18,595 bases of DNA, taken from contig CAMEAW010000047.1 of assembly GCA_945911685.1 (NCBI GenBank), forward strand, positions 1 through 18,595, read 5' to 3'. This stretch comes from Bordetella parapertussis (GTDB taxonomy: Bacteria; Pseudomonadota; Gammaproteobacteria; Burkholderiales; Burkholderiaceae_B). The translations under genes were made by a program, and so were the position numbers. The notes under the pieces were generated by a model, which saw nothing but the letters and a program-made list of their open reading frames with translations, was not told the DNA's origin and did not search any database. Shown piece after piece: positions 5,637-18,595 of this stretch (its first letter is position 1; each line of letters begins with the position of its first letter).

Positions 5637-6263
5637 TTACTTCGCGACGTAATCTTTTGGACGGAACATCTCAAACAGAGTGTTGACTTCGACGTAATCA
5701 CCTTGGTAGCCACAGCGACCCAAGGGCTTTGCGGCTGCCGTATCAAAAATGCCATCTTTCAAAAACGCATTGTTAATGTGTACGCCCACAACTTCACCAA
5801 GCGTCAACCAGGTATTAATCAGATTGCCCTTGGCATCAGTCAACTGCGTGGTGCTAATCAGCTTGCACTCGAGTGCGGCAATTGCGTTGGTCACGCGTGG
5901 AGGCTTGACCAAAGTCGAGGCCGTTGCTGCCAAACCAGCAAGTTTCATTTCGTCGATACCAGGTGCCACGGATGCAGACGTAATGTTCATCTCTTGGGCC
6001 AAGTCAGCGCCGCAAAAATTAGCCACAAACTCGCCCGTTTCGTCGGCGTTATTACAGCTGTCTTTACGCTCGCCGCTGGTGCAAAACCCAATGACTGGCG
6101 GTGTCTCGGCAAAGGCATTAAAAAAACTGTAGGGCGCTAAATTGACGCGGCCGAGTTTGTCGATGGTCGAAATCCAACCAATTGGACGAGGCGCAATGAT
6201 GGCCTTGAACGGGTTGTGGGGCAGGCCATGGCCTTTGCTCGGTTCGTAAAAATAATCGCTCAC
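5637..6263 (-). CDS. Flavin reductase-like, FMN-binding split-barrel protein
   Basis: A 208-residue protein of the flavin_reduct (FMN split-barrel) family. The core block IAPRPIGWIST is followed by LGRVNLAPYSFF, then PPVIGFC and GEFVANF, all standard for this fold. Related proteins reduce FMN/FAD with NAD(P)H to feed two-component monooxygenases, or bind FMN for other redox tasks. No monooxygenase gene lies in the window. I choose the GTG at 6263 because AAAGGA sits seven bases upstream of it. A longer in-frame ATG at 6317 would add 18 residues outside the usual fold and has no such site. It is transcribed divergently from the isochorismatase/ABC operon across a 294-base region with dyad elements, hinting at coordinated control. 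Confidence 0.88.
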   Translation of the reverse strand: MSDYFYEPSKGHGLPHNPFKAIIAPRPIGWISTIDKLGRVNLAPYSFFNAFAETPPVIGFCTSGERKDSCNNADETGEFVANFCGADLAQEMNITSASVAPGIDEMKLAGLAATASTLVKPPRVTNAIAALECKLISTTQLTDAKGNLINTWLTLGEVVGVHINNAFLKDGIFDTAAAKPLGRCGYQGDYVEVNTLFEMFRPKDYVAK

Positions 6264-6270
6264 TTTAAGA

Positions 6271-6276
6271 TCCTTT
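6271..6276 (-). promoter_or_regulatory. Ribosome-binding site fixing a GTG start
   Basis: AAAGGA on the minus strand lies seven bases before the GTG at 6263. It is the only good Shine-Dalgarno near the 5' end of the flavin-reductase-like gene and therefore decides its start. Confidence 0.65.
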
Positions 6277-6463
6277 GTAATTTTTAAAAAAACTTGTTTG
6301 ACGATTCGATCACTCAACGCCCAAAATTTAAAAGCGCACTTATTCAGGCTGTTTTGGCTATTTTGACCGCACGCTCAATAACCGTAGCATAGCGCACCAA
6401 AAAATACGAGATATTGAGACCTTAACTGTTGGTAAAAATAAAGCAAGTCAAAATAATTCGGGC

Positions 6464-6557: not shown

Positions 6558-7196
6558 ATGAGCGAACCCACCCGTGACGAAAACTACCGTGGCGTCTTTG
6601 ATACTGCGTTGGGTTTTGGCAATCGCCCTGCTGTAATTGTGGTTGACTTTGTCAAAGCCTACACCACACCAGACGCGCCTTTTTTTGGACAAGGTGTTGT
6701 CGATGCGGTGCAGCATTCAGTGCCACTCCTAGAGGCTGCGCGAGCAGCCAAGGTACCCGTGCTGTACACCCAGGTGGTTTATCACCCCTCAGGCGCTGAC
6801 GGTGGCATGTTCTTTAAAAAGGTTCCCTCGCTCAAACTTTTTGTAAAAGGCGAACCATTAGGTGAGATCGACGCTCACATTACGCCTCACCCTCAAGATT
6901 TTATTATCACCAAGCAATACCCAAGCTGTTTTTTTGGCACATCCCTAGGGTCAACCCTTAAGACTTTAGATATCGACACTATCGTGCTGATTGGTTGCTC
7001 GACCAGCGGCTGTGTCCGAGCGACCGCCGTTGATGGCATCCAGTATGGTTACCGTGTCGTGGTGCCCCGCGAATGCTCAGGTGATCGCCACGAGGGCCCG
7101 CACGATGCGGCCTTGTTCGATATCAATGCCAAGTACGGTGATGTTGTACCAAAATCAAAAGTGATTAGTTGGTTTAATACACTGGCTCACAACTGA
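6558..7196 (+). CDS. Isochorismatase-family amidohydrolase (N-carbamoylsarcosine amidase/maleamate amidase-like)
   Basis: A 212-residue cysteine hydrolase of the isochorismatase-like fold. The catalytic triad is visible as D30 in VIVVDFVKAYT, K119 in ITKQYPSCFFGT and C152 in GCSTSGCVRATAVDG. The GFGNRPAVIVVDF-type N terminus resembles the branch holding N-carbamoylsarcosine amidase and maleamate amidohydrolase, rather than nicotinamidase or true isochorismatase. Such enzymes release ammonia (plus CO2 from carbamoyl groups) from small amides in the cytosol. It is the first gene of the operon; the next starts one base after its stop, so translation is probably coupled. Its association with an amidase and an importer supports a nitrogen-compound degradation role. 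The exact substrate cannot be read from the sequence. Confidence 0.92.
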   Translation: MSEPTRDENYRGVFDTALGFGNRPAVIVVDFVKAYTTPDAPFFGQGVVDAVQHSVPLLEAARAAKVPVLYTQVVYHPSGADGGMFFKKVPSLKLFVKGEPLGEIDAHITPHPQDFIITKQYPSCFFGTSLGSTLKTLDIDTIVLIGCSTSGCVRATAVDGIQYGYRVVVPRECSGDRHEGPHDAALFDINAKYGDVVPKSKVISWFNTLAHN

Positions 7197-7197
7197 C

Positions 7198-7878
7198 ATG
7201 AGCGCACCAGCACTCACCATTCTTAAAGATTGGCCTCGCTTCACCGTTCAGCCTTATCCAGTTTTTTTAAAAGCATCTTCTAACCAATTTAGCGATGCGA
7301 CTGACGGGCGTGGCACTCTCAAGCACTCGTTGCGCCGTTTTTCCGGAGGCTCCAGACTCATGGGTTCTGCCCTGCCAGTCTGGACAGCCCCTGGGGATAA
7401 TCTGGCCCCCTACGCTGCACTAAAAGTGATTCAACCCGGCGACATACTCGTGGTTGCAAGCGCCTCTTATACAGGCTGCGCACTTTTAGGTGATCACATT
7501 ATGGGCCTCTTGAATAATGCGAAAGCGGCGGGCATGATTACCGACGGCTTAATACGTGATCTTGAGGGCTTAAGCGACATCAACTTGCCGGTGTACGCCG
7601 CCGGCACTTCGCCTCTGGTTCCTACCAAGCATGGGCCCGGCACAGTTGGTTTACCCATAACTCTGGGGTCTGTCGTCATCCACCCTGGTGATCTAATCAT
7701 CGCAGACGATGACGGCATCGTCATTGTCCCACCCGCTGAGTTTGCTCAGGTATCAGACAAACTAATAGCGCTGCGAGAACGGGACGCAGCGCTTGAACAA
7801 CGCGTTCGTGCAGGCGCCACAGAGCCACCAGACTTTGAGCAACTTCTTGAACGCGTTGGGGTTCGGTGGCTCACATGA
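7198..7878 (+). CDS. RraA-family protein (HMG/CHA aldolase-like)
   Basis: A 226-residue member of the RraA/4-hydroxy-4-methyl-2-oxoglutarate aldolase family. The signature AAGMITDGLIRDLEGL (110-125) carries the conserved R120-D121 pair that in HMG aldolases contacts substrate and metal. HPGDLIIADDDGIVIVP (161-177) is the other typical block. Family members are metal-dependent aldolases or oxaloacetate decarboxylases in aromatic-acid degradation, or the RNase E regulator RraA. The catabolic context favours an enzyme acting on a keto acid. The N-terminal segment (1-35) is divergent, but length is in the normal range. The stop codon overlaps the next start by four bases (ATGA), so translation is coupled with the amidase. 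Confidence 0.88.
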   Translation: MSAPALTILKDWPRFTVQPYPVFLKASSNQFSDATDGRGTLKHSLRRFSGGSRLMGSALPVWTAPGDNLAPYAALKVIQPGDILVVASASYTGCALLGDHIMGLLNNAKAAGMITDGLIRDLEGLSDINLPVYAAGTSPLVPTKHGPGTVGLPITLGSVVIHPGDLIIADDDGIVIVPPAEFAQVSDKLIALRERDAALEQRVRAGATEPPDFEQLLERVGVRWLT

Positions 7879-9284
7879 GCTCAAAACACAACAAGCGCTC
7901 TGCACCCTTATGGGCAATCACGCTTGCCGAGGCCTCTGCGCGCATTGCAAATCAAACGCTCTCGCCAAGTGACTTGTTAGAGGCTTATCTTGAGCGCATA
8001 GCGGCCGTCGACGATCGCATCCATTCTTATATTCACGTCGCAGCCGCGCAGGCTAGAGTTGCGGCTGCACAAGCGGGCAAAGAGATTACTGCCGGTCATT
8101 GGAAAGGCCCCTTGCATGGCCTACCTTTTGCAGTCAAAGATAACTATGATGTCGCGGGCATGCCTGCGACTGCAGGATCACGCCTACGTCTGGAACATGT
8201 CCCCTCGCAAGATGCTGCCTTGGTTCAACAACTTAAAGCTGCCGGCGCCATACTGATGGGTAAGCTCTCGACATGGGAATTTGGCACGGGCAACGGTGGC
8301 GAATACTTTGATTTACCTTTTCCGCCGGCGCGTAACCCTTGGGATACAAGTCGCTTTACCGGCGGGTCCTCAACCGGCGCGGGCGCCAGCGTCGCCGCAG
8401 GCACCACGCTCTTTGCTCTGGGCTCCGACACAACGGGTTCAGTACGTTTGCCGGCTGCCGCCTGTGGTGCGATCGGCATGATTGCGACGCCAGGCCGTTT
8501 ATCCACGCAAGGCATTCTCCCAAATTGTTGGTCACTTGATATCCCTGGCCCTTTAGCCTGGACCGTCGAAGACTGCGCCATGATTTTGGACACACTGTTT
8601 AATCAAACGATTGATCCAAAAAATATTCAGCCTAGCCTACGCAGATCGATCGGCAAACCGATCACCGGTCTACGTATCGCAGTGGTTGACGATCCGGGGC
8701 CTGGTTTTCCCGATGCCGATCCTCCGCTGAAAAAGGGTTTTGAACAAGCCTTAGAAGTACTTGAGCAACTGGGCGCACAACTCACCCGAGTCAAATTGCC
8801 GGTTCCCGCGGCCGAGTGCTTTGCAGCCTCGCGAATGATTGGTCCGGCAGAAACGGCTGCGATTCATGAACAAGAATTAAAAGAACAGGCAGACCAAATG
8901 GGGTTTGCCTTGCGCGATAAATTGCTGGCGGGTTCGCTGGTGCGCGCCGTTGACTATCTTGCAGCGCAGCGCCTGCGGCGCACGGTTGCGACGAGTCTAG
9001 ATACTTTGATGCGCGGCTATGATGCGCTTGTCACCTTCGGTACCTTACACATGCCGCCCCGTTTAGGCGTCGAGCCCGAGATGACTGCCTTCACTATTGA
9101 AACCATGCTCACGCCTTTTAATCTCTCGGGACATCCCGTCATGATGCAATGCAATGGTTTCAATAAGGGGCTGCCGCTCAATTGGCAAATCGTTGGCAAC
9201 CGCGGAGATGAAGCAACAATTATTCGCGTGGCTTCCGCATACGAAAACGCAACCACGTGGCGTGAAAAACGGGCGCAACCCTGA
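7875..9284 (+). CDS. Amidase-signature family hydrolase (GatA/AtzE-like)
   Basis: A 469-residue amidase-signature enzyme. The Ser-cisSer-Lys triad can be placed as K88 in LPFAVKDNYDV, S165 in FTGGSSTGAG and S189 in SDTTGSVRLPA, with the cis-Ser to nucleophile spacing of 24 residues usual for the family. The block after the nucleophile reads GMIATPGR where many members have GLKPTxGR. These enzymes hydrolyse carboxamides to acid and ammonia in the cytosol. The ATG at 7875, inside an ATGA overlap, is preferred to an in-frame GTG at 7866. Its stop overlaps the start of a 69-residue GatC/AtzG-like gene, as in the AtzE/AtzG pair of cyanuric acid degradation. It is not called AtzE because the surrounding Atz pathway is absent. 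The substrate is unknown. Confidence 0.92.
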   Translation: MSSKHNKRSAPLWAITLAEASARIANQTLSPSDLLEAYLERIAAVDDRIHSYIHVAAAQARVAAAQAGKEITAGHWKGPLHGLPFAVKDNYDVAGMPATAGSRLRLEHVPSQDAALVQQLKAAGAILMGKLSTWEFGTGNGGEYFDLPFPPARNPWDTSRFTGGSSTGAGASVAAGTTLFALGSDTTGSVRLPAAACGAIGMIATPGRLSTQGILPNCWSLDIPGPLAWTVEDCAMILDTLFNQTIDPKNIQPSLRRSIGKPITGLRIAVVDDPGPGFPDADPPLKKGFEQALEVLEQLGAQLTRVKLPVPAAECFAASRMIGPAETAAIHEQELKEQADQMGFALRDKLLAGSLVRAVDYLAAQRLRRTVATSLDTLMRGYDALVTFGTLHMPPRLGVEPEMTAFTIETMLTPFNLSGHPVMMQCNGFNKGLPLNWQIVGNRGDEATIIRVASAYENATTWREKRAQP

Positions 9285-9493
9285 TGACCAAATCAAAGAC
9301 AAAGAAAGCCGAACCCACCCTCGAGGAAGCAAACGCCTTTGCCCAGCGGCATGGATTGAATCACCTGAGGCCAGAGTACATCGCTCGACTGCGCGAACTC
9401 ATCGCGCCCGTCGCCTTTTATGGACAACAAGTTAGACGTTCTCCGCATAAAGAGAATGCGCCCGCGTCCGAATTCACAGCTTTTAAACCGTAA
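9284..9493 (+). CDS. Small GatC/AtzG-like partner protein of the amidase
   Basis: A 69-residue protein whose ATG overlaps the TGA of the amidase gene (TGATG), forcing near-equal expression. A charged N terminus (MTKSKTKKAEP) precedes a predicted helix (EEANAFAQRHGL), a second helix (PEYIARLRELIAPVAFYGQQV) and an extended tail ending ASEFTAFKP. That helix-helix-tail layout, size and position match the GatC/AtzG type (DUF4089-like), small subunits that wrap around amidase-signature enzymes and are needed for folding or activity. AtzG with AtzE is the closest functional parallel I know. Sequence identity is too weak to assign by eye, so the call rests on size, predicted structure and overlap. 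It could instead be an unrelated small protein. Confidence 0.62.
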   Translation: MTKSKTKKAEPTLEEANAFAQRHGLNHLRPEYIARLRELIAPVAFYGQQVRRSPHKENAPASEFTAFKP

Positions 9494-9523
9494 CTAAACG
9501 ACTACTTAAAGAGGGCAGCAAAC

Positions 9524-11086
9524 ATGCAAAAAAAACCTTCATTCAATACCGACATGAGTCGACGGCACATGTTGGGACTTATGGGCGCGACAGCGGCAGT
9601 CTCGATGCTTCCTTGGGATCCTCTTAGCGCTCAAACAGCCACTGGTGTCTTGCGCGTGCGTTTGGGCGCGGACATTGGAAACCTGGATCCTGCAAAAATA
9701 TTTTTAATTGAAAATCAAACGGTCGCTGGGCATATTTATAACGGCCTTGTGAAATATGATCAGAAAACAAATAATATCGTCCCCGATCTAGCCGCTAGCT
9801 GGGAAGTTTCACCCGACGCAACGGTCTACACGTTCAAACTCAAGCCCGGCGTCAGCTTCCACAAAGGCTTTGGTCCACTGACCTCTGATGATGTCAAATT
9901 TTCGTATGATCGCGTCATCGACCCGACTGGTGGCAGCGCGTATCGCGGCCAACTCGCCTCGATCAAAACGATTGAAACGCTCGATCCCTTAACTGTCAGA
10001 ATCACCCTGACAGCGCCAACGGCGGGCTTCTTACACAAGTTAACTGCATTCAATCAAGGCTGGATCGTATCGCGCAAAGCCGTCACCGAGATCGGTGATA
10101 AGTACTCAATGCAGCCTATTGGCACCGGTCCCTTCGTGTTTGACAAGTGGACACCAGGAAATGAAGCGCGTGTCATCGCAAACAAAGCCTACTTTGACGG
10201 TTCACCTAGCGTAAACGAAGTCATCTTCAAGGTGATCAGAGACGAAACTGCCGCAGCAATTGCGGTCGAGAACCGTGAAATAGATATTTTCTTTGCCTTA
10301 CAGCAGCCAGATATGATTGCGCGAATGCGTAAAGCAAAAGGCGTAGTTGTTTTCGAACGCCCTGCCAATCACACAATCAATTTAGTCCTCAACACAACTA
10401 TCAAACCGCTTGATGATGTGCGCGTCCGTCGGGCAATGACTCATGCGATCAATCGAAAAGCTCTGATCGATGGCTATTTCAAAGGTACAAAAAACGAAGC
10501 AAGCACAGTGCTGACTCCTTCCTTCGTCGAGTATTCAGAAGACGTTGTGAAGTATCCCTACGACCCTGCGAAGGCAAAGGCGCTGCTGAAAGAGGCTGGC
10601 CTTGCCTCTGGATTTAAATTCGTCATCACCTCAGTCGGGCTCAATCCCTTTGACAAAATTCCCGTCCCGATTGCTGAAGACCTAAAAGACGTGGGAATTG
10701 ACGCCAGCATTCAGATTCTTGAACGGGCTGCTTACCAACAAGCTCGCTCAAAAGGCGAAATCCAAAGCTGTATTACTGGTCTAGTTGGGCCACCAGACCC
10801 AGACTCGCCACTTGTTTCGCTTTTCTCGACAAAATCATTTCCGCCCGGACTCAATACTTCAAAGTACGATAAGGTCGATGATTTGCTCGCAAAAGCTGCG
10901 ACCAGCACTGATCCAAATGCTCGCAAAGCGGCCTACGCAGAAATATTAAAACGCACAGCATCGGATCAACCTTTGATTCCGCTTTACCAAGATCGTCTAT
11001 TTTTGGCACATACTGAGCGAGTTCAAGGGCTGATACAAAACTCGCTATTTACGATGCAGTCCTTCGGTGTGTCTTTGAAAGGATAG
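9524..11086 (+). CDS. ABC transporter substrate-binding protein, peptide/nickel (SBP_bac_5) family, Tat-exported
   Basis: A 520-residue periplasmic binding protein of the Dpp/Opp/Nik class. The N terminus has a twin-arginine motif, SRRHML (R13-R14), a hydrophobic stretch and a probable cleavage near PLSAQ, suggesting folded export by the Tat system. Family blocks include LRVRLGADIGNLDPAKI, IYNGLVKYD, ASWEVSPDATVYTFKLKPGV and DDVKFSYDRV, then VRRAMTHAINRKALIDGYFKG. It should capture the operon substrate and deliver it to the two permeases encoded downstream. A GAGGGC ribosome-binding site precedes the ATG by about nine bases; the 30-base gap from the small amidase partner shows no separate promoter. 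Binding proteins of this class carry peptides, but also opines, nickel and other compounds, so the catabolic neighbours are a better guide to the ligand. Confidence 0.95.
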   Translation: MQKKPSFNTDMSRRHMLGLMGATAAVSMLPWDPLSAQTATGVLRVRLGADIGNLDPAKIFLIENQTVAGHIYNGLVKYDQKTNNIVPDLAASWEVSPDATVYTFKLKPGVSFHKGFGPLTSDDVKFSYDRVIDPTGGSAYRGQLASIKTIETLDPLTVRITLTAPTAGFLHKLTAFNQGWIVSRKAVTEIGDKYSMQPIGTGPFVFDKWTPGNEARVIANKAYFDGSPSVNEVIFKVIRDETAAAIAVENREIDIFFALQQPDMIARMRKAKGVVVFERPANHTINLVLNTTIKPLDDVRVRRAMTHAINRKALIDGYFKGTKNEASTVLTPSFVEYSEDVVKYPYDPAKAKALLKEAGLASGFKFVITSVGLNPFDKIPVPIAEDLKDVGIDASIQILERAAYQQARSKGEIQSCITGLVGPPDPDSPLVSLFSTKSFPPGLNTSKYDKVDDLLAKAATSTDPNARKAAYAEILKRTASDQPLIPLYQDRLFLAHTERVQGLIQNSLFTMQSFGVSLKG

Positions 11087-11091
11087 TCAGC

Positions 11092-12033
11092 GTGCTCGGA
11101 CATGTTGGTCGAACCCTGTTAAGACTATTCGTTACGGGGCTAGGGATTGCTTCGGTCGCGTTCTTTTTAATGAGAGCGATACCGGGTGATCCCGCGTCCT
11201 TCATGCTCGGGGACTATGCCACCAAAGAATCGATCACAGCCCTGCGCGCAAAGCTCGGACTCGATGAGCCCGTCTGGCGCCAATACACCTTATTTTTAAG
11301 CCACGCGGCTACTGGTAATTTCGGAACTTCAGTTGTCACCGGGCAACCGGCGCTTCAAGAAGTGATGGCCAGCATCCCATCTTCGGCCGTTCTAGCGTTG
11401 TCGGGGCTCTTTATCGCGATCTTGATTGGGCTGCCGTTAGGCATCGTCTGTGCAGTGCGGCACGGAACCTGGGTGGATGTCAGTGTGATGCTTGGCGCGT
11501 TAGCCGGCATTTCTTTTCCGGTCTTCTGGATGGGCTTAGCAGCAATTTTACTTTTCTCATACTGGATTCCAATCTTTCCGGCGCTTGGTTCGAGTAATGC
11601 AAAAGATATTTTGACGCAAATTCACCATCTTATTTTGCCTGCTCTGGTGCTCGGGGTGTCGATCGCAGCTTACATTGCTCGGCTCACACGCTCGGCAATG
11701 TTAGAGGTCTTATCTCAAGACTATATCCGTGTGGCGCGCGCCATGGGGGTACCCGAGAGACGCATTATTTTTAAACTTGCCCTGCGTAATGCCTTGGTGC
11801 CGATCTTGGCTGTGATTGGTGTCACCTTTGCCTGGTCGTTTGGTAATGCGATCTTGATTGAAGCTGTGTTTAGCAGACCTGGTCTGGGCTCAATGTTATT
11901 GAAAGCGATTTTGGCGCGAGATTATCAGTTGGTACAAGCCGGCGTTTTGATACTCGCCTTCATGGTTGTCCTCATTAACGCGAGCCTCGACTTAACCTAC
12001 ACCTTAATCGACCCACGGCTGAAGGCATCATGA
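11092..12033 (+). CDS. ABC transporter permease, DppB/OppB type
   Basis: A 313-residue inner-membrane permease with about six hydrophobic helices. The N-terminal motif FFLMRAIPGDPASFMLG is characteristic of DppB/OppB, as is the periplasmic segment around GLDEPVWRQY and GNFGTS. The cytoplasmic EAA loop (about residues 203-237, LSQDYIRVARAMGVPERRI) is the docking site for an ATPase. It begins at a GTG at 11092, six bases after the binding-protein stop, with a GGA purine site overlapping that stop. No ATG near the 5' end would preserve the conserved N terminus. It would form the channel with the DppC-type permease, whose gene overlaps by four bases. Confidence 0.95.
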   Translation: MLGHVGRTLLRLFVTGLGIASVAFFLMRAIPGDPASFMLGDYATKESITALRAKLGLDEPVWRQYTLFLSHAATGNFGTSVVTGQPALQEVMASIPSSAVLALSGLFIAILIGLPLGIVCAVRHGTWVDVSVMLGALAGISFPVFWMGLAAILLFSYWIPIFPALGSSNAKDILTQIHHLILPALVLGVSIAAYIARLTRSAMLEVLSQDYIRVARAMGVPERRIIFKLALRNALVPILAVIGVTFAWSFGNAILIEAVFSRPGLGSMLLKAILARDYQLVQAGVLILAFMVVLINASLDLTYTLIDPRLKAS

Positions 12034-12923
12034 CCACATCTCTCGACCAGCAGAAGCGCGATCAGCAAGATCGCCGCAGAGCGACCTGGCGTCGGTTCAC
12101 CAGTCATCCGAGTCTGATGATCGGCACCGTTATTCTGGTAATTCTAGTCGTCGTTGCACTCGCCGCCCCGTGGCTCGCACCCTACTCTCCTACACGCACA
12201 AGCTTGATCAACACCTTACAAGACGCCTCATGGGCTCACCCGCTCGGAACAGATCAATTTGGACGCGACGTACTTTCTCGGCTGATTCATGGGACACGCG
12301 TGTCCTTATTAGTTGCATTTTGGGTCGTCACCTTATCACTCATCATTGGCACCGTCGTGGGTGGCATTGCCGGCTTTTTCGGTGGCTGGATTGATCGAAG
12401 TATCAACGTCGTCAACGATATCTTGATGGCGTTTCCTGGTTTTTTACTTGCGCTTGCCATCGTAGCGACCCAAGGCTCATCGCTCGAGTCAGTCATCATC
12501 GCAGTATCGATTGCCTATACACCGCGCGTCACAGCAGTGATGCGCTCAGTGGCACTCACGATTCGCCCACGCCCCTTTATTGAAGCCTCTCGTTCGATCG
12601 GTATGACGTCAACGCGAATCTTGCTTAGACATGTGATCCCTAATGCTCTGCCCCCGGTGATTGTCGTTGCGACACTCAGCGCAGCCTCAGCCATCCTCGC
12701 AGAGGCTGGCTTGAGTTTTTTAGGCTTAGGCGTCAGGCCACCGATTCCGACCTGGGGAAACATCATCGCGGATGGTCAAGCATCCATCACAACAAATCCG
12801 CTCATCTCGATTTCTTCTGGTCTATGTATTGCCGCCATGGTCATCGCACTAAATTTAATTGGTGACGGACTCAGAGACGCACTTGATCCACAGATGCGTC
12901 GCCAGACTGCGAAAATTCTATGA
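12030..12923 (+). CDS. ABC transporter permease, DppC/OppC type
   Basis: A 297-residue inner-membrane permease. It has the hydrophilic N-terminal tail usual for DppC, a first helix (GTVILVILVVVALAAPWLA), the family motif HPLGTDQFGRDVLSRLIHG, and an EAA loop (EASRSIGMTSTRILLRHVIPN) that contacts the nucleotide-binding subunits. EAGLSFLGLGVRPPIPTWG is another DppC hallmark near the C-terminal helices. The start overlaps the preceding permease gene in ATGA, and its own stop overlaps the ATPase gene in the same way, so the two channel halves and ATPase are probably made in proportion. All expected motifs are present with no sign of damage. Confidence 0.95.
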   Translation: MTTSLDQQKRDQQDRRRATWRRFTSHPSLMIGTVILVILVVVALAAPWLAPYSPTRTSLINTLQDASWAHPLGTDQFGRDVLSRLIHGTRVSLLVAFWVVTLSLIIGTVVGGIAGFFGGWIDRSINVVNDILMAFPGFLLALAIVATQGSSLESVIIAVSIAYTPRVTAVMRSVALTIRPRPFIEASRSIGMTSTRILLRHVIPNALPPVIVVATLSAASAILAEAGLSFLGLGVRPPIPTWGNIIADGQASITTNPLISISSGLCIAAMVIALNLIGDGLRDALDPQMRRQTAKIL

Positions 12924-13918
12924 GCCATCCTTCAAAGGTATTGCTCGATATTCAACAACTCTCGGTGGCAGTGAGTGAAGCGCATTCGGCGATCCCTTTA
13001 GTGCACAATGTATCTCTTCAGATCAATTCAGGAGAAACACTTGCCGTCGTTGGCGAATCTGGATCCGGCAAAACCCTAACCTTTTTAGCCGCGTTAGGCA
13101 TTGCTCCCGCGGGCATTAAAGTCACCTCTGGTAAGGTTCTTTTTGAGGGTGACGATCTAACAAAACTGAATCCTAACGCGCTACGTACAATGCGCGGCAC
13201 CGCAATTTCGATGGTGTTCCAAGATCCCCTGTCCGCACTGAACCCAGTCTTTTCGATCGGCACCCAAATCATTGAAGTCTTGCGCGCTCACTTACCGTTG
13301 ACTAAAGCGCAAGCGCGCACGCGCGCAATCGAATTACTCGAGCGCGTTCACATTCCTGATCCTCATCACCGAATTGATGATTACCCACACCAGTTTTCGG
13401 GTGGTATGCGGCAACGTGCCTTGATCGCTATGGCTATTGCGCTTGAGCCTAAAGTGCTCATTGCGGACGAACCCACGACGGCACTTGACGTGACCGTGCA
13501 AGCGCAAGTGCTCGAGTTACTTTCTCAGCTGCGGGAAGAAACTGGGATGGCCTTGGTGCTGATCACCCACGATTTAGGCTTGGTTGCCCGACATGCCGAT
13601 CGTGTTGCAGTGTTTTACGCTGGAAGAATCGTTGAACAGGCGGCGGTTCAAGCTTTATTTCGCGAACCGCGCCACCCGTATACCGTTTCTTTATTTCGAA
13701 CCATTCCCAGATTAGATAGCCCCACAGATATAGCCCTGACCCCGATTGTCGGCCAACCCCCCAATCTAGCAAAATTACCAGCGGGCTGTCCCTTTGCACC
13801 GCGCTGCTATCTCGCGAAATCAGATTGTGGATCGTTACAGACCACACTCGTCGACACGACTAGCAAAGAACATCTGTCGGCTTGTCAGTATTGGCCTGAA
13901 GTTCACCAAGAGTTTTAA
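12920..13918 (+). CDS. ABC transporter ATP-binding protein, DppD/OppD type
   Basis: A 332-residue nucleotide-binding subunit powering uptake through the DppB/DppC channel. Walker A is GESGSGKT (45-52), the signature FSGGMRQ (159-165), Walker B VLIADE (179-184) and the switch histidine H217 in LITHDLG. The C-terminal oligopeptide-transporter domain has clustered cysteines (C290, C296, C303, C322) in the pattern seen in many OppD/DppD proteins. Some relatives bind an iron-sulfur cluster there; whether this one does is not shown. It overlaps the permease gene by four bases and ends one base before the second ATPase gene. Confidence 0.95.
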
Positions 13919-13919
13919 G

Positions 13920-14969
13920 ATGGCGCATCCTACACCAGCCCCTTTGCTTGAACTCAAGAATATCTGCAAGACGTTCAATGGCTCCGTGTCTTGGCGCGGT
14001 CGCTCGTCCAACGGGGTTCAAGCGGTGGATCAAGCCACGCTGGCTCTATACCCCGGTGAAACCCTTGGTTTAGTGGGCGAAACCGGTAGTGGAAAAAGTA
14101 CCTTGGGGCGGATTGCTCTGCGCTTGATCGAACCCAGTTCAGGGAGCGTAATGTTTGAAGGGCAAGACATCACACATTTGTCGCCCCGTTCAATGCGCGA
14201 AAAGCGGCAACGTATGCAAATGGTCTTTCAAGACCCCTACGGCTCGCTTGATCCGCGTATGAGTGTTAACAAACTCGTTTCAGAACCATTAGTCGTTCAC
14301 AATGTCGCCTATGCGCAACGTCAAGAAAAAATGCATGCGGCGCTCGAGCAAGTTGGCCTTGATCCATCGCTGGCGCATCGCTACCCACATGAATTTTCAG
14401 GAGGCCAACGTCAACGCATTGGTATTGCGCGCGCGATGGTTCTTGATCCCGCTTTTCTGGTTTTAGATGAGCCTGTCTCTGCACTCGATGTTTCCATTCA
14501 AGCTCAAGTTTTAAATCTGCTACACGAGATTCAAATTCGTACTGGGGTGTCATACCTGTTTATTGCGCATGACTTGTCTGTCGTGCGCCATATTAGTCAT
14601 CGCGTAGCCGTGATGTACCTTGGTCGTATTGTCGAAATTGGCACGCGCGACGCTATCTATAACCGGCCCAAGCATCCCTACACAGTCTCACTCTTATCCG
14701 CTGTACCCATACCCGATCCGATGCTTGAACGCGCGCGCAAACGAATCCCCTTGATCGGCGAAATCGGCTCGGCCAACAACACACCTAGCGGCTGTCGCTT
14801 TCATCCACGCTGCCCACGCGCGCACGAGATCGCGCAGCAGAGCAATATCGCGAAACAAAAACTAGGCGCCATTGAAATACCAGTCTTGTGCGCCACGCAA
14901 GACCCTGCACTTGTCGGCTCTGATACAGAGCAGGCCTGTGCCTGTCACTTTCCTCATGAGACGTTCTAG
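13920..14969 (+). CDS. ABC transporter ATP-binding protein, DppF/OppF type
   Basis: The second ATPase of the importer, 349 residues. Walker A is GETGSGKS (53-60), the signature FSGGQRQ (159-165), Walker B FLVLDE (179-184) and the H-loop H217 in FIAHDLS. The C-terminal GCRFHPRCPRA segment is typical of DppF/OppF. The ATG at 13920 follows the stop of the DppD-type gene by one base and has AAGAG about ten bases upstream. A longer in-frame reading from 13794 would lie wholly within the previous gene and is rejected. An extra stretch near residues 19-33 (SVSWRGRSSNGV) is a variable insertion common in OppF between the first strands. It completes a five-gene Dpp-type system. Confidence 0.95.
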   Translation: MAHPTPAPLLELKNICKTFNGSVSWRGRSSNGVQAVDQATLALYPGETLGLVGETGSGKSTLGRIALRLIEPSSGSVMFEGQDITHLSPRSMREKRQRMQMVFQDPYGSLDPRMSVNKLVSEPLVVHNVAYAQRQEKMHAALEQVGLDPSLAHRYPHEFSGGQRQRIGIARAMVLDPAFLVLDEPVSALDVSIQAQVLNLLHEIQIRTGVSYLFIAHDLSVVRHISHRVAVMYLGRIVEIGTRDAIYNRPKHPYTVSLLSAVPIPDPMLERARKRIPLIGEIGSANNTPSGCRFHPRCPRAHEIAQQSNIAKQKLGAIEIPVLCATQDPALVGSDTEQACACHFPHETF

Positions 14970-14984
14970 CCAACACCCCAAGCG

Positions 14985-15869
14985 ATGAATAAATTAATCA
15001 TTGAAGTTCGAATTAACGAGTATGCGATGCGCGATGAAAATCCGCACGTGCCCTGGACGCCTGAAGAAATTGGGCGCGAAGCACGCGCAATTCAGGATGC
15101 AGGCGCTTCGATTGTTCACTTTCATGCGCGTGCCGCCGATGGTTCTCCTGCGCACGGTTTAGAGGATTATGCTGCCCCAATCAGAGCAATACGCGCAAAT
15201 TCTGACTTGATGATTAACCCCACACTTGGGCAAATCACCAAAGGCGGCAAACTCGAGCGAATCAGCCACATTGAGGCCTTTGCGACTGACCCCATCTTGA
15301 AACCTGAAATTGTTGGTCTCGATCCAGGCTCAACCAATATCGATATTTTTGACCCGCAAAATCGACGCTTTGTGACTGACGGCAAAGTCTACGTCAACGC
15401 GCACGACACCTTAATCGCCTTTACAGAGCGTTTCCGCACTCTCGGGATCAAGCCGGCGCTTGCCTGCTGGAGCATCCCGTTTATGCGCAGCGCTGCTGCC
15501 TTAATGGATATGGGCTTAGTGGCTGAGCCTGCAAATTTTTTATTTGTGCACGGCGGGGAAGGCCAACTCGGCGCGCACCCAGCAACAGCCGAAGGGCTTC
15601 GCGCTTACACAGACCATCTACCTAAAAATCGACAATCTGAATGGGCGGTCTGCTGCAAGAGCGGTAATTTATTTCCGATCGCACTCAGTGCGATCGCCCA
15701 AGGAGGCCATATTGCCATTGGAATTGGTGACTATGCCTATCCAGAACTTGGCTACCCTACAAACGCAGAATTAGTCCAAGAGATCGTTGATTTGGCAAAA
15801 ACTGTCGGGCGTGAAGTCGCAACGCCCGCTGAAGCGCGAGAGATTTTGGGTATCCTTCCAAGATCTTAA
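14985..15869 (+). CDS. BKACE-family protein (DUF849, beta-keto acid cleavage enzyme) with altered active site
   Basis: A 294-residue member of the BKACE family, whose characterised enzymes cleave a beta-keto acid with acetyl-CoA to give acetoacetate and a new CoA ester. Conserved features are PWTPEEI (23-29), the zinc pair H45 and H47 in VHFHARAADGSP, NPTLG (78-82) and the C-terminal REVATPAEAREILG. The usual GGHVRVGLEDN motif reads GGHIAIGIGDY (240-250): the arginine that anchors substrate is A244, and the glutamate that completes zinc binding in 3-keto-5-aminohexanoate cleavage enzyme is G248, while D249 is kept. The usual KPELE block is KPALA (156-160). It is the last operon gene, 15 bases after the DppF-type gene. 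It may be a functionally shifted subfamily with different chemistry or substrate. Confidence 0.88.
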   Translation: MNKLIIEVRINEYAMRDENPHVPWTPEEIGREARAIQDAGASIVHFHARAADGSPAHGLEDYAAPIRAIRANSDLMINPTLGQITKGGKLERISHIEAFATDPILKPEIVGLDPGSTNIDIFDPQNRRFVTDGKVYVNAHDTLIAFTERFRTLGIKPALACWSIPFMRSAAALMDMGLVAEPANFLFVHGGEGQLGAHPATAEGLRAYTDHLPKNRQSEWAVCCKSGNLFPIALSAIAQGGHIAIGIGDYAYPELGYPTNAELVQEIVDLAKTVGREVATPAEAREILGILPRS

Positions 15870-16085: not shown

Positions 16086-16853
16086 ATGCAAACCACAAAT
16101 TCGGCCCGCGTTCAAGTTTTTTGGCAGCCCGGCTGCTCGTCTTGTTTACGTACCAAAGAGTTTCTAACGAAACAAGGAATCGACTTCGAATCGATCGATG
16201 TACATAACGACCCAACAGGAATGGATAAATTACGTGCCTTAGGTGCCCGCAGCGTACCGGTCGTGGCCCTCGGTGGTAAGTTCACAATGTGTCAGTCATT
16301 TAACGATGTGATCAAGTTTTTAGATCTCAAAACGAAGTTAATGGATCCCTTGCCTCCAGAGCAGCTGGTCGCAAAGTTAGACATCGTCTTGCAGACCGCT
16401 GTTCGGTTGATTCAGCAATTCAAACCAGAGCAATTGCGCGAAAATTTTCGCAATCGCAACCGCAATCCAGCAGGCACGGCTTTTCATATTTTTCGAGTCG
16501 CACAAATGGGTGTTGAAGCCGCCCATCAAATCGATCTGAAATTTGAAAGCTTTAACGAAGTCGCACCTGATGACTGGACAGCAAGCGACCTAGCTAAGTG
16601 GGGAGAAACCGTGCGGGCTGAACTACTCGCGTGGTGGGCAAAGGAAGCGAACCGTAACCTTGACTACCTCGTGCCCACTTACTACGGACGACGCAGCATG
16701 CACGACGTCTTTGAGCGCACAGCGTGGCACTCTGCTCAACACACGCGACAAATGACGCTCATGCTTGAAACCTATGGGATCACGCCTGATCGCCCCTTAA
16801 GCGCTGAAGACTTAAAAGGCCTGCCCGTTCCTGATGAAGTTTGGGATCGCTAA
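16086..16853 (+). CDS. Glutaredoxin-DinB fusion protein
   Basis: A 255-residue two-domain cytosolic protein. Residues 8-80 form a glutaredoxin-like domain with a dithiol centre CSSC (C17-C20) in FWQPGCSSCLRTKEFL, and the cis-proline segment RSVPVVALGG (P58). Residues 92-232 resemble a DinB-type four-helix bundle, with a possible metal triad of H134 (TAFHIFRVAQ) and H215/H219 (AWHSAQHTRQM). DinB proteins include thiol-dependent transferases and hydrolases such as mycothiol- and bacillithiol-dependent S-transferases, so a physical link to a glutaredoxin domain suggests a glutathione-coupled reaction; this is inference. The gene stands alone, with 216 non-coding bases before it and a terminator after it. 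Both domain assignments rest on visible motifs; the substrate is unknown. Confidence 0.85.
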   Translation: MQTTNSARVQVFWQPGCSSCLRTKEFLTKQGIDFESIDVHNDPTGMDKLRALGARSVPVVALGGKFTMCQSFNDVIKFLDLKTKLMDPLPPEQLVAKLDIVLQTAVRLIQQFKPEQLRENFRNRNRNPAGTAFHIFRVAQMGVEAAHQIDLKFESFNEVAPDDWTASDLAKWGETVRAELLAWWAKEANRNLDYLVPTYYGRRSMHDVFERTAWHSAQHTRQMTLMLETYGITPDRPLSAEDLKGLPVPDEVWDR

Positions 16854-17028: not shown

Positions 17029-18030
17029 ATGAAATCTACCTTGTACAGAGACATCAAACGCGCCTATTTATTTAGCAGCGCTCTCGCCTTTTTTGGTCTA
17101 AGCGGCGTGATGCACACAGTGCATGCGCAAGACGATTATCCAAATCGTGCGATTCGCATTGTTGTGCCATTTTCACCAGGTGGCGGCGGAGATGCCGTCG
17201 TACGCTACATGAGCGATAAACTCGCCGAGCGGCTCAAACAACAAATTATTGTTGAGAACAAGCCTGGTGCCTCGGGATTTATTGGTGCACAAATCGTTGC
17301 AACGGCAGCACCAGACGGTTACACGCTTCTAATGGGGTTTGATGGCAGCATTGTCGTTGCGCCAAACATGCTCAATGCGCCTTTCAACCCTATTACCGAT
17401 TTTGCACCAGTGACCAAGCTCAATGATGCAACGATTATTCTGGTCGCCAACCCCTCAGTACCAGTCAAAAATATCAGCGACATTGTGGCACTGGCAAAAT
17501 CCAAACCTGAAGGGCTTCAGTTCAGTTCGTCTGGGCCGGGTACAACACCTCACCTCGCGGGTGAGCTCCTGGCTCTACGCACTGGCATGAAGCTGTCACA
17601 TATTCCTTATAAAGGTGGTGGACAAGCGGTCACTGATGCAGTTGCCGGGCATTTTCCAATTTTCTTTACCGTCGTGCCGACTGTTGCAAGTTACATCAAA
17701 CAGGGTCGACTGAACGCCATCGCTGTGGCCGGTGACAAGCGTTCACCGGCATGGCCTGACATCCCCACAATCGCCGAATTGGGCGTTCCGGATTTTAACG
17801 TCAGTTCTTGGTATGGAATTTTGGCCCCGGCCAAAACGCCCAAAGTCATTATTGATCGCTTACAGAGAGATATCGCGGCGGTTTTAGCGATTCCAGAGGT
17901 ACGCGATCGTTACCTCAACAATGCCTTCGATCCAATTGCTAGCACCCCTGAGGCGTTTGCCGCCCAAATCAAAGCTGACTATGCACGCTGGGGCCAAGTG
18001 GTAAAAGATGCCAACCTTAAGCCACAGTAA
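17029..18030 (+). CDS. Bug/TctC-family periplasmic solute-binding receptor
   Basis: A second orphan receptor of the tripartite tricarboxylate transporter family, 333 residues. The signal peptide runs from MKSTLYRDIKR through a hydrophobic core to a probable cleavage after VHA before QDDYPN. The mature part carries AIRIVVPFSPGGGGDAVVR, IVENKPGASGFIGA and APDGYTLLMG, closely parallel to the receptor at 429-1415 but clearly divergent, so they are paralogues and not a recent duplication. An in-frame ATG at 16972 is rejected because it lies within the terminator stem and would add residues before the signal peptide. No TctA/TctB membrane gene accompanies it. It lies 90 bases before the split nitrile hydratase-type genes, so its ligand might be related to their substrate, but this is speculative. 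Confidence 0.93.
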   Translation: MKSTLYRDIKRAYLFSSALAFFGLSGVMHTVHAQDDYPNRAIRIVVPFSPGGGGDAVVRYMSDKLAERLKQQIIVENKPGASGFIGAQIVATAAPDGYTLLMGFDGSIVVAPNMLNAPFNPITDFAPVTKLNDATIILVANPSVPVKNISDIVALAKSKPEGLQFSSSGPGTTPHLAGELLALRTGMKLSHIPYKGGGQAVTDAVAGHFPIFFTVVPTVASYIKQGRLNAIAVAGDKRSPAWPDIPTIAELGVPDFNVSSWYGILAPAKTPKVIIDRLQRDIAAVLAIPEVRDRYLNNAFDPIASTPEAFAAQIKADYARWGQVVKDANLKPQ

Positions 18031-18120
18031 AGCCTTTGAGCTAGCACATTCACTCATATCGCGCTACGCTTAGAATCCTTACGAAGTTAATTTTTTAGCC
18101 CATCACACAATGGATCTTTC

Positions 18121-18444
18121 ATGACAGAACGTAAAGTCAATGATATCGGTGGCCTACCCGCTGGCCCAGTCTGCCAAGACGAACACGCCAGTACCTTGCA
18201 CGAAAAACGAGTCGATGCCATTTTAAAAATTTTATCTGGTCCAAAGCTTAAGGCGTTCACTTCGGATGCGATGCGCCGAGCGATCGAATCTAACACCAAA
18301 GAAGACTACCGTAACCTGGGCTATTACGACAAGTGGATTCGGGCTGCGTGCGAACTGATCATTGAGCAACAAATCTTGAGCCGCGAAGAAATCGAAGCTC
18401 GGGTCGAACTATTACGTGCAAAACATAAAATGGTGGCAGCATGA
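18121..18444 (+). CDS. Nitrile hydratase beta-subunit N-terminal half (thiocyanate hydrolase/split-NHase type)
   Basis: A 107-residue protein matching the N-terminal half of nitrile hydratase beta. The opening NDIGGLPAGPV mirrors the HDxGG...GPV start of NHase beta. The helical region around MRRAIES (51-57), then YYDKWIRAACELIIEQQIL, follows the YYxHWL...LLVEKGVL pattern. R52 may be the counterpart of the conserved beta arginine near the catalytic metal. The protein stops where full NHase beta continues, and a separate overlapping gene (ATGA) encodes the C-terminal half. Splitting of beta is known for thiocyanate hydrolase and toyocamycin nitrile hydratase. Alternatively it is a NHase-associated accessory/activator homologue, but the gene that follows favours a split subunit. 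The metal-binding alpha-type subunit is not in the window. Confidence 0.83.
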   Translation: MTERKVNDIGGLPAGPVCQDEHASTLHEKRVDAILKILSGPKLKAFTSDAMRRAIESNTKEDYRNLGYYDKWIRAACELIIEQQILSREEIEARVELLRAKHKMVAA

Positions 18445-18595
18445 CGGCCTTTGCGATACGTCCAGGTCAAGCACTACCGGTCGGTGCACCCGTTCGCGTG
18501 CGCAAGCAGCCGCCCGAGCAACATTGCCGCACGCCGTTTTACTTGCGCGGCATCGAAGGTGAAATTACCGATGTGATGGGCTGCTTCCGCGACCC
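18441..18595 (+). CDS. Nitrile hydratase beta-subunit C-terminal half, 5' part (runs off window)
   Basis: The 51 complete codons visible encode the start of the NHase beta C-terminal, SH3-like domain. LPVGAPVRVRKQPP (12-25) matches the FxxGdxVxV...P entry strand, and EQHCRTPFYLRGIEGEITDV (26-45) matches the HtRxPxYxRGkxGxI signature. R30 fits the second conserved beta arginine that contacts the oxidised cysteine ligands of NHase. The ATG overlaps the stop of the preceding gene in ATGA, so the two halves are translationally coupled. The frame is open to the end of the window, so its length and any downstream alpha-type gene (expected CxxCSC metal motif) cannot be seen. Together the two genes suggest a three-subunit NHase/thiocyanate hydrolase-like enzyme. 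Confidence 0.83.
   Translation, partial: MTAFAIRPGQALPVGAPVRVRKQPPEQHCRTPFYLRGIEGEITDVMGCFRD

Follow-up and report, generated by a model that had tools for sequence, protein, structure and literature searches.

The window analysed here, a stretch of 18,595 nucleotides, breaks off within two overlapping genes that resemble the two halves of the beta subunit of nitrile hydratase (NHase), which raises the question of what a split beta subunit says about the enzyme. A split beta and thiocyanate or another exotic substrate are two separate things that are easily conflated.

Split beta genes and their alpha partner

The first gene (betaN, 18121..18444, forward strand) encodes 107 aa that match the N-terminal domain of the NHase beta subunit (PF21006 NHase_beta_N, 6.5e-13, 49.2 bits against a cut-off of 21.5). 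The second (betaC, 18441..18595, forward strand), whose frame opens at the ATG at 18441 and runs for 51 aa up to the window edge, matches the C-terminal domain (PF02211 NHase_beta_C, 1.9e-7). The stop of the former and the start of the latter overlap in the four bases ATGA (18441..18444, forward strand), which suggests translational coupling of betaN and betaC. Full-length orthologues of both halves are found in the nearest genome compared (G001, locus L006; betaN at 7223-7546, 7.2e-15; betaC at 7543-7863, 1.3e-18). The window betaN contains an Arg, R52; in the betaN orthologue of L006, R52 aligned to residue 56 of the Rhodococcus beta chain 1ahj_B, and we take it to be the counterpart of betaArg56, an Arg with a role in NHase. 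The betaC motif HCRTPFYLRG contains a further Arg, R30, which should align with residue 141 of the Rhodococcus beta chain; this match was made by offset only (query residue 12 being chain residue 123 of 3a8m_B) and assumes an ungapped fit. The N- and C-terminal beta domains and both conserved beta Arg of the NHase superfamily (EC 4.2.1.84-like) are thus present, R30 by offset only. The domain matches confirm the initial annotation in its reading of the window genes as both halves of one NHase beta subunit, encoded by genes that overlap by four bases.

Among 32 genomes of the genus, judged by open-frame length, 23 have a separate betaC (110-132 aa), one has fragments, six have a fused beta only and two have none; the beta subunit is split in 62 of the 76 loci L011-L086. 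The 40 proteins matched by betaC are all 72-146 aa long, which adds little, as the search admitted only 0.55-1.75 times the query length. A frameshift or an assembly error was considered as the source of the split and was rejected, because both half-genes recur throughout the genus (20/20 fetched regions) and in numerous genomes beyond these.

The orthologous region of G001 shows 89% DNA identity to the window over 475 bases. Here betaN (107 aa), betaC (106 aa) and alpha (226 aa) follow one another with a four-base overlap at each junction, and the alpha protein (PF02979, 2.6e-74) carries the CTLCSC motif and a His-rich tail. The alpha of L007 is 96% identical to this copy; L213, which is the same locus as L007, has the same gene order and a complete alpha, and its interval between betaN and the upstream Bug receptor gene is identical to that of the window at 89 of 90 bases. 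A 92% identical alpha is carried by a short MAG contig (L008, CAMCZQ010000257.1). The window ends before the alpha gene, which can be predicted downstream with high confidence from the nearest relatives. The initial annotation had expected a three-subunit enzyme with an alpha-type gene bearing CxxCSC to the right, and both expectations are borne out by these relatives, where a CTLCSC alpha follows betaC in the order betaN-betaC-alpha; the CxLCSC alpha of the NHase superfamily is likewise seen in the nearest relatives only.

On TIGR01323, the model of the NHase alpha subunit, the L006 alpha reaches 240.2 bits, just under the equivalog cut-off of 249.85; on TIGR03887, the model of the gamma subunit of thiocyanate hydrolase (SCNase), it reaches 205.2 bits (9.1e-61) against a cut-off of 291.45. 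The window-type alpha is named by no curated model, since it falls below the NHase equivalog cut-off too. Its best PDB matches are Co-type NHases (P. putida 3qxe, 206.6 bits), with SCNase at 181.5 bits.

The split clade, thiocyanate hydrolase and the pocket residue

The initial annotation had taken the split beta as a sign of chemistry like that of SCNase or of toyocamycin nitrile hydratase (ToyJKL), the latter also a three-subunit enzyme. We classified 172 alpha ORFs, of which 115 go with a split beta and 50 with a fused one, while 7 were cut or unsure; some genes are counted more than once (G001 as L002, L006 and L120; L107/L172; L109/L157). A peptide-pattern locus search (VVCTLCSC, YPRMLLGI), in which 80 of 590 loci were kept, biases the shares of split beta and of the pocket Arg discussed below. 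Loci L087-L176 were picked by family models; the order and phylum sets were ranked by the SCNase model and may favour Arg, and the order-set rows (399 genomes) are all split or cut.

The alpha tree was built with motif columns masked, after alpha domains shorter than 170 residues and rows at least 82% identical to a kept row had been removed (L006 was restored, and L139 was removed as a long branch in one tree). A branch with 100/100 support divides its 70 rows into 48 (split, SCNase and window group) and 22 (18 fused and 4 related to the AnhDEA enzyme described below). The window group comprises seven rows (support 100/100) and lies outside the SCNases, which form their own group of five (100/98). 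The split side spans Rokuibacteriota, Binatota, Chloroflexota, SAR324, a Streptomyces (L044), and Alpha-, Beta- and Gammaproteobacteria, and its internal backbone is weakly supported. In AU tests, run with a window group that did not include L012, a clade of the window group and the SCNases is unrejected (p 0.206), a clade of the window group and the AnhDEA type is marginally rejected (p 0.040), and a single clade of all split rows including AnhDEA is neither shown nor rejected (p 0.449). The split beta is thus a clade-wide trait across several phyla and, taken alone, no pointer to an exotic substrate. No title or abstract describing this split Arg-type clade as such was found in the literature searched, which excluded most subscription journals.

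The alpha of L012 (JANQMX010000012.1), a transporter-linked split NHase from a Rhodovibrionaceae MAG, falls near the SCNases or near the window group, depending on the tree, and its operon has possibly passed between enzyme lineages. Beta-alpha fusions in eukaryotes are the subject of PMC3323583.

A functional precedent exists for a split beta. According to PMC7329996, the cobalt NHase of S. canus CGMCC 13662, ScNHase, consists of three subunits (AnhD-AnhE-AnhA), and a search for its activator gene found none; AnhD acts as a metal and subunit-swapping chaperone, and the enzyme hydrates ACE (acetamiprid), THI and BN, of which we read the last two as thiacloprid and benzonitrile. A 2026 review calls AnhDEA a novel three-subunit NHase without accessory protein (PMC13243292). 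The two split precedents named in the initial annotation are thus not the only ones, and the third, AnhDEA, acts on organic nitriles. With the split being clade-wide in several phyla as well, the step from split beta to SCNase- or toyocamycin-like chemistry is not supported.

The split beta, the order betaN-betaC-alpha and the motif CTLCSCYPR are nevertheless common to seven true SCNase loci and the window type, and the SCNases lie within the same 100/100 side of the tree, with a sister relation unrejected. That the locus is itself a thiocyanate hydrolase, with its pocket Arg serving the thiocyanate anion, is decidedly unlikely, though. In an order-wide profile search of 399 genomes, seven alpha-type genes scored above the SCNase cut-off of 291.45 on TIGR03887, at 338-400 bits, against 204.5 for G001; a phylum-wide search of 299 genomes found none above it. 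The window type stands outside the 100/98 SCNase group, and its betaN has about 107 aa against 140-202 in SCNase ORFs, some of which are overlong at the start. An ORF like P15K, the SCNase activator discussed below, lies downstream in 0/20 window-type loci and in 6/7 SCNase loci. The two types also differ at alpha positions 161 and 187, which are Glu and Asp in the window type but Trp and Lys in the five SCNase rows. By score, clade and activator, the window-type locus would not be an SCNase and the proposed membership falls away, while a sister relation stays compatible with the AU test (p 0.206). Split NHases are frequent among the sampled relatives and bear a mark by which they can be recognised, so an SCNase label given from the split alone may mislead. 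According to the methods passages of PMC10098168, SCNases were collected there by profile, with hits limited to E-values of 1e-10 and filtered by length; given 9.1e-61 for the window-type alpha on the SCNase model, that set may mix both types.

By an offset of 22, the residue that follows CTLCSCYP is the counterpart of residue 117 in the Rhodococcus alpha chain. We take this residue to line the NHase substrate pocket; nothing on a Trp117 pocket was found in the literature searched. In the 172-ORF set, which is in part pattern-biased, it is Arg in 107/115 split and 2/50 fused rows. Aligned at position 117, split rows have Arg in 67/73 and Lys in 3 (L081 and L123, which are of the Trp type, were excluded beforehand), and fused rows have Trp in 25/31 and Arg in 1/31; the SCNases have Arg (5/5) and the AnhDEA type Leu or Val (6/6). 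SCNase, which is known to act on an anion, has Arg at 117, and this suggests that the class takes polar or anionic nitriles. For the window type, the alpha Arg in place of the canonical Trp is a hint in the same direction. A His-rich alpha tail was also considered as a mark of the split type and was rejected, as fused enzymes have it too (22/29 with at least six His).

These counts bear on whether the enzyme might be an ordinary NHase in which the split is neutral gene fission, without bearing on substrate or maturation. The closest PDB relatives of its alpha are canonical Co-NHases, and fission alone is possible, since the Trp-type L081 and L123 on the fused side are split too and keep a second betaN-like ORF. 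We consider such neutral fission unlikely, as the split goes with Arg at 117 in 47/48 split and 0/40 fused rows among the family-model picks L087-L176, and in 11/11 and 0/18 among picks made by the betaC domain alone, which are mostly from one genus. Outside SCNase it also goes with a missing activator ORF, across one well-supported clade. In L081 and L123 the gene order is alpha-betaN-betaC, with the further betaN-like ORF after it, and the splits of these two are apparently independent.

Activator genes and the gene neighbourhood

NHase activators are weakly similar to the beta subunit, as stated in a passage of PMC7329996. We searched with the betaN profile for an ORF of at least 13 bits just downstream of the enzyme genes, in loci with at least 1.2 kb to look in. 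Such an activator-like ORF is present in 24/28 fused loci, 6/7 SCNase loci and 1/64 other non-fused survey loci (a few of them cut), the sole exception being L081, which bears Trp and lies among the fused enzymes in the tree. With at least 1.2 kb searched, it was found in 0/20 window-type loci (L007 and L213, one and the same locus, are both counted) and 0/4 AnhDEA-type loci. The SCNase downstream ORFs score only 15-21 bits on this profile; in a background control of 6209 ORFs, 7 score 13-30 bits; apart from one alpha fragment, these are the SCNase ORFs, six in number. These ORFs fit P15K, an SCNase activator reportedly described by Kataoka in 2006 (cited in PMC3511329). When a threshold of 25 bits is applied anywhere in the locus, matches are found in 28/29 fused loci, 2/62 split survey loci (L067, with a broken betaN, and L081), 0/23 window-type loci and 0/7 SCNase loci, where the flanks are then too short and the ORF itself scores below this threshold.

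The small downstream activator gene predicted by the initial annotation is thus lacking in all 20 window-type loci with 1.2 kb downstream, which is compatible with an activator elsewhere in the genome. The simplest reading would be that the free betaN half does the work of the activator in the window type, as reported for AnhD. Two groups speak against a simple rule linking split and activator: in the SCNases a split beta is accompanied by an activator-like ORF, and the eight fused loci of a CTAF type show none. Since the SCNases combine both features, a free betaN half alone does not make the activator needless. Most split enzymes lack a neighbouring activator-like gene, whereas most fused enzymes and SCNases have one, and this poses the question of whether a free betaN can replace the activator. 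The CTAF-type fused NHases (L097, L099-L105, from eight genomes of the genus) have a CTLCSCTAFS/T alpha and a beta of about 205 aa, and are perhaps another activator-free type, with no activator-like ORF nearby; five of the eight genomes, including G001, also encode the split enzyme.

Upstream of betaN lies the gene of a Bug/TctC-type tripartite transporter receptor (17029..18030, forward strand; PF03401, 4.2e-71), which had been proposed to supply the ligand. Between this gene and betaN we recognise a deletion scar (18058..18110, forward strand), in which the final ~53 bases of an ABC-transporter ATPase gene survive, the rest of that gene being lost. Aligned locally to the ATPase gene end of six relatives, the scar scores 34-49, values reached by 0-2 of 2000 two-base-block shuffles, and the same scar is found in L213, L215 and L203. 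Immediately upstream of betaN, G001 carries the four genes of an ABC transporter. Its binding protein (L006 3308-4387) is nearest to PotD and 4edp_A, its permeases to PotB and PotC, and its ATPase to PhnT2 and PotA, all matches being below equivalog cut-offs. The transporter is upstream of the split NHase in L006, L216, L217, L208 and L209 of the genus, and also in L009 (Ferrovibrio), L010 (Burkholderiaceae) and L012 (Rhodovibrionaceae), which represent three further genera.

The scar makes the adjacency of Bug and NHase a by-product of deletion. The receptor is co-directional with the NHase genes in the window and adjoins them in L213 and L215 as well, but the four transporter genes separate the two in L006, L216 and L217. 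In L203, where the split NHase is intact, the Bug gene next to it survives only as a remnant (8948-9175 on the reverse strand of the locus), and a Bug homologue was not found in L009 or L010. It is scarcely credible, then, that the adjacent receptor supplies the NHase substrate, and this proposal is abandoned. In several other loci of the genus, the upstream place of Bug is taken by a gene homologous to window 5637-6317 and lying on the opposite strand. A gene fusing a glutaredoxin domain to a DinB-like domain (window 16086-16853; PF00462, PF12867) lies beside the Bug receptor in L006, L213, L215, L216 and L217.

Two genes elsewhere in the window could act on an amide. The first encodes an isochorismatase-family hydrolase (6558..7196, forward strand), with its nearest PDB matches to N-carbamoylsarcosine amidohydrolase (4.3e-47) and to the 'putative isochorismatase' entries 3ot4/3uao (7e-34). 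It is 56-58% identical to the copies in L009 and L010; in L009, L010 and L012 such a gene starts 0.7-1.6 kb after the alpha start, and the enzyme is a candidate for hydrolysis of the amide product. The second candidate amide hydrolase is an AtzE-like amidase of the amidase signature family (7866..9284, forward strand; PF01425, 2.1e-86; NF006631, 265.6 bits against a cut-off of 461). Both lie in a catabolic-looking island (window 6558-15869) that also holds an RraA-like protein and a beta-keto acid cleavage enzyme, and the ORFs between the island genes look, by eye, like a Dpp-type ABC transporter.

In 20 fused control regions, chosen among Trp and His types with the eight CTAF-type loci left out, no binding protein, permeases or isochorismatase-family hydrolase were found. 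The full transporter set is absent from the other split survey loci, so the transporter operon is a trait of one subgroup. Outside it, single weak neighbour matches occur: a permease and an ATPase in L042 and L075, the isochorismatase family in L072, and an amidase in L061 and L071. When neighbours were clustered across all of the wider split clade, no partner common to it emerged; the two largest clusters occur only antisense to NHase genes and are read as antisense ORFs, and most of the others are shared by a few loci, mainly of Rhodobacter type.

A proposed pathway and comparison with known systems

The best joint explanation is a three-subunit cobalt NHase in which betaN helps to load the metal and which feeds an amidase, and as a whole we hold it to be probable. 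As expected from the family, betaN, betaC and alpha would assemble into the usual NHase fold, with Co(III) held by the CTLCSC cysteines of alpha, one catalytic Arg contributed by each beta half, and the site at a subunit interface. Of the two halves, betaN resembles NHase activators, and it may serve as a metallochaperone and take part in subunit swapping, the roles that have been published for AnhD. A small organic nitrile would be hydrated to its amide, and the amide could be cleaved to acid and ammonia by the isochorismatase-family amidase, and perhaps by the AtzE-like one. In relatives, the substrate would enter through the Pot-like ABC importer, which is gone from the window lineage, and Arg at the alphaTrp117 position might favour a polar or anionic nitrile. 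Against this explanation, the tree places AnhDEA, which serves as functional precedent, on its opposite side, a joint clade being marginally rejected (p 0.040), and the SCNases too carry Arg and the split.

A broader reading is conceivable but less likely than not. Split beta, a free betaN serving as activator and an Arg tuning the pocket to anionic or carboxylate nitriles would define a broad, little-described NHase class, of which the SCNases would be a specialised branch that kept or regained an activator and the window subgroup a full scavenging operon (Pot-like importer, split NHase and isochorismatase-family amidase).

Among known systems, canonical Co-type NHases (P. putida 3qxe and others) share with the window type the best alpha PDB match, CTLCSC, both beta Arg and often a His-rich alpha tail. 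They differ in having a single beta chain, mostly Trp at 117, and a separate activator-like ORF in 24/28 fused loci. ScnBAC (TIGR03887; 2dd4) shares the split beta, gene order, CTLCSCYPR, some alpha-tail His and the side of the tree, whereas the SCNases form a separate 100/98 group with 338-400 bits, a longer betaN and an activator-like ORF in 6/7 loci. The comparison with AnhDEA uses Streptomyces relatives found by the anhD start instead of the published S. canus sequence: the published anhD primer/start is matched with at most two mismatches in 35/392 Streptomyces genomes, a CTLCSC alpha is present in 19/20 of the matching loci fetched, and the tree includes alpha rows of four of these genomes. 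AnhDEA agrees with the window type in its three subunits, its betaN-betaC-alpha order and its lack of an activator gene. Its relatives, however, fall on the fused side of the tree, together with CTAF and TNW types (94/76), carry Leu or Val at 117 where the window type has Arg, and have a median of 1 His in the alpha tail against 11.5. The window locus would thus combine an AnhDEA-like build with a pocket mark of its own and with the transporter and hydrolase of its subgroup.
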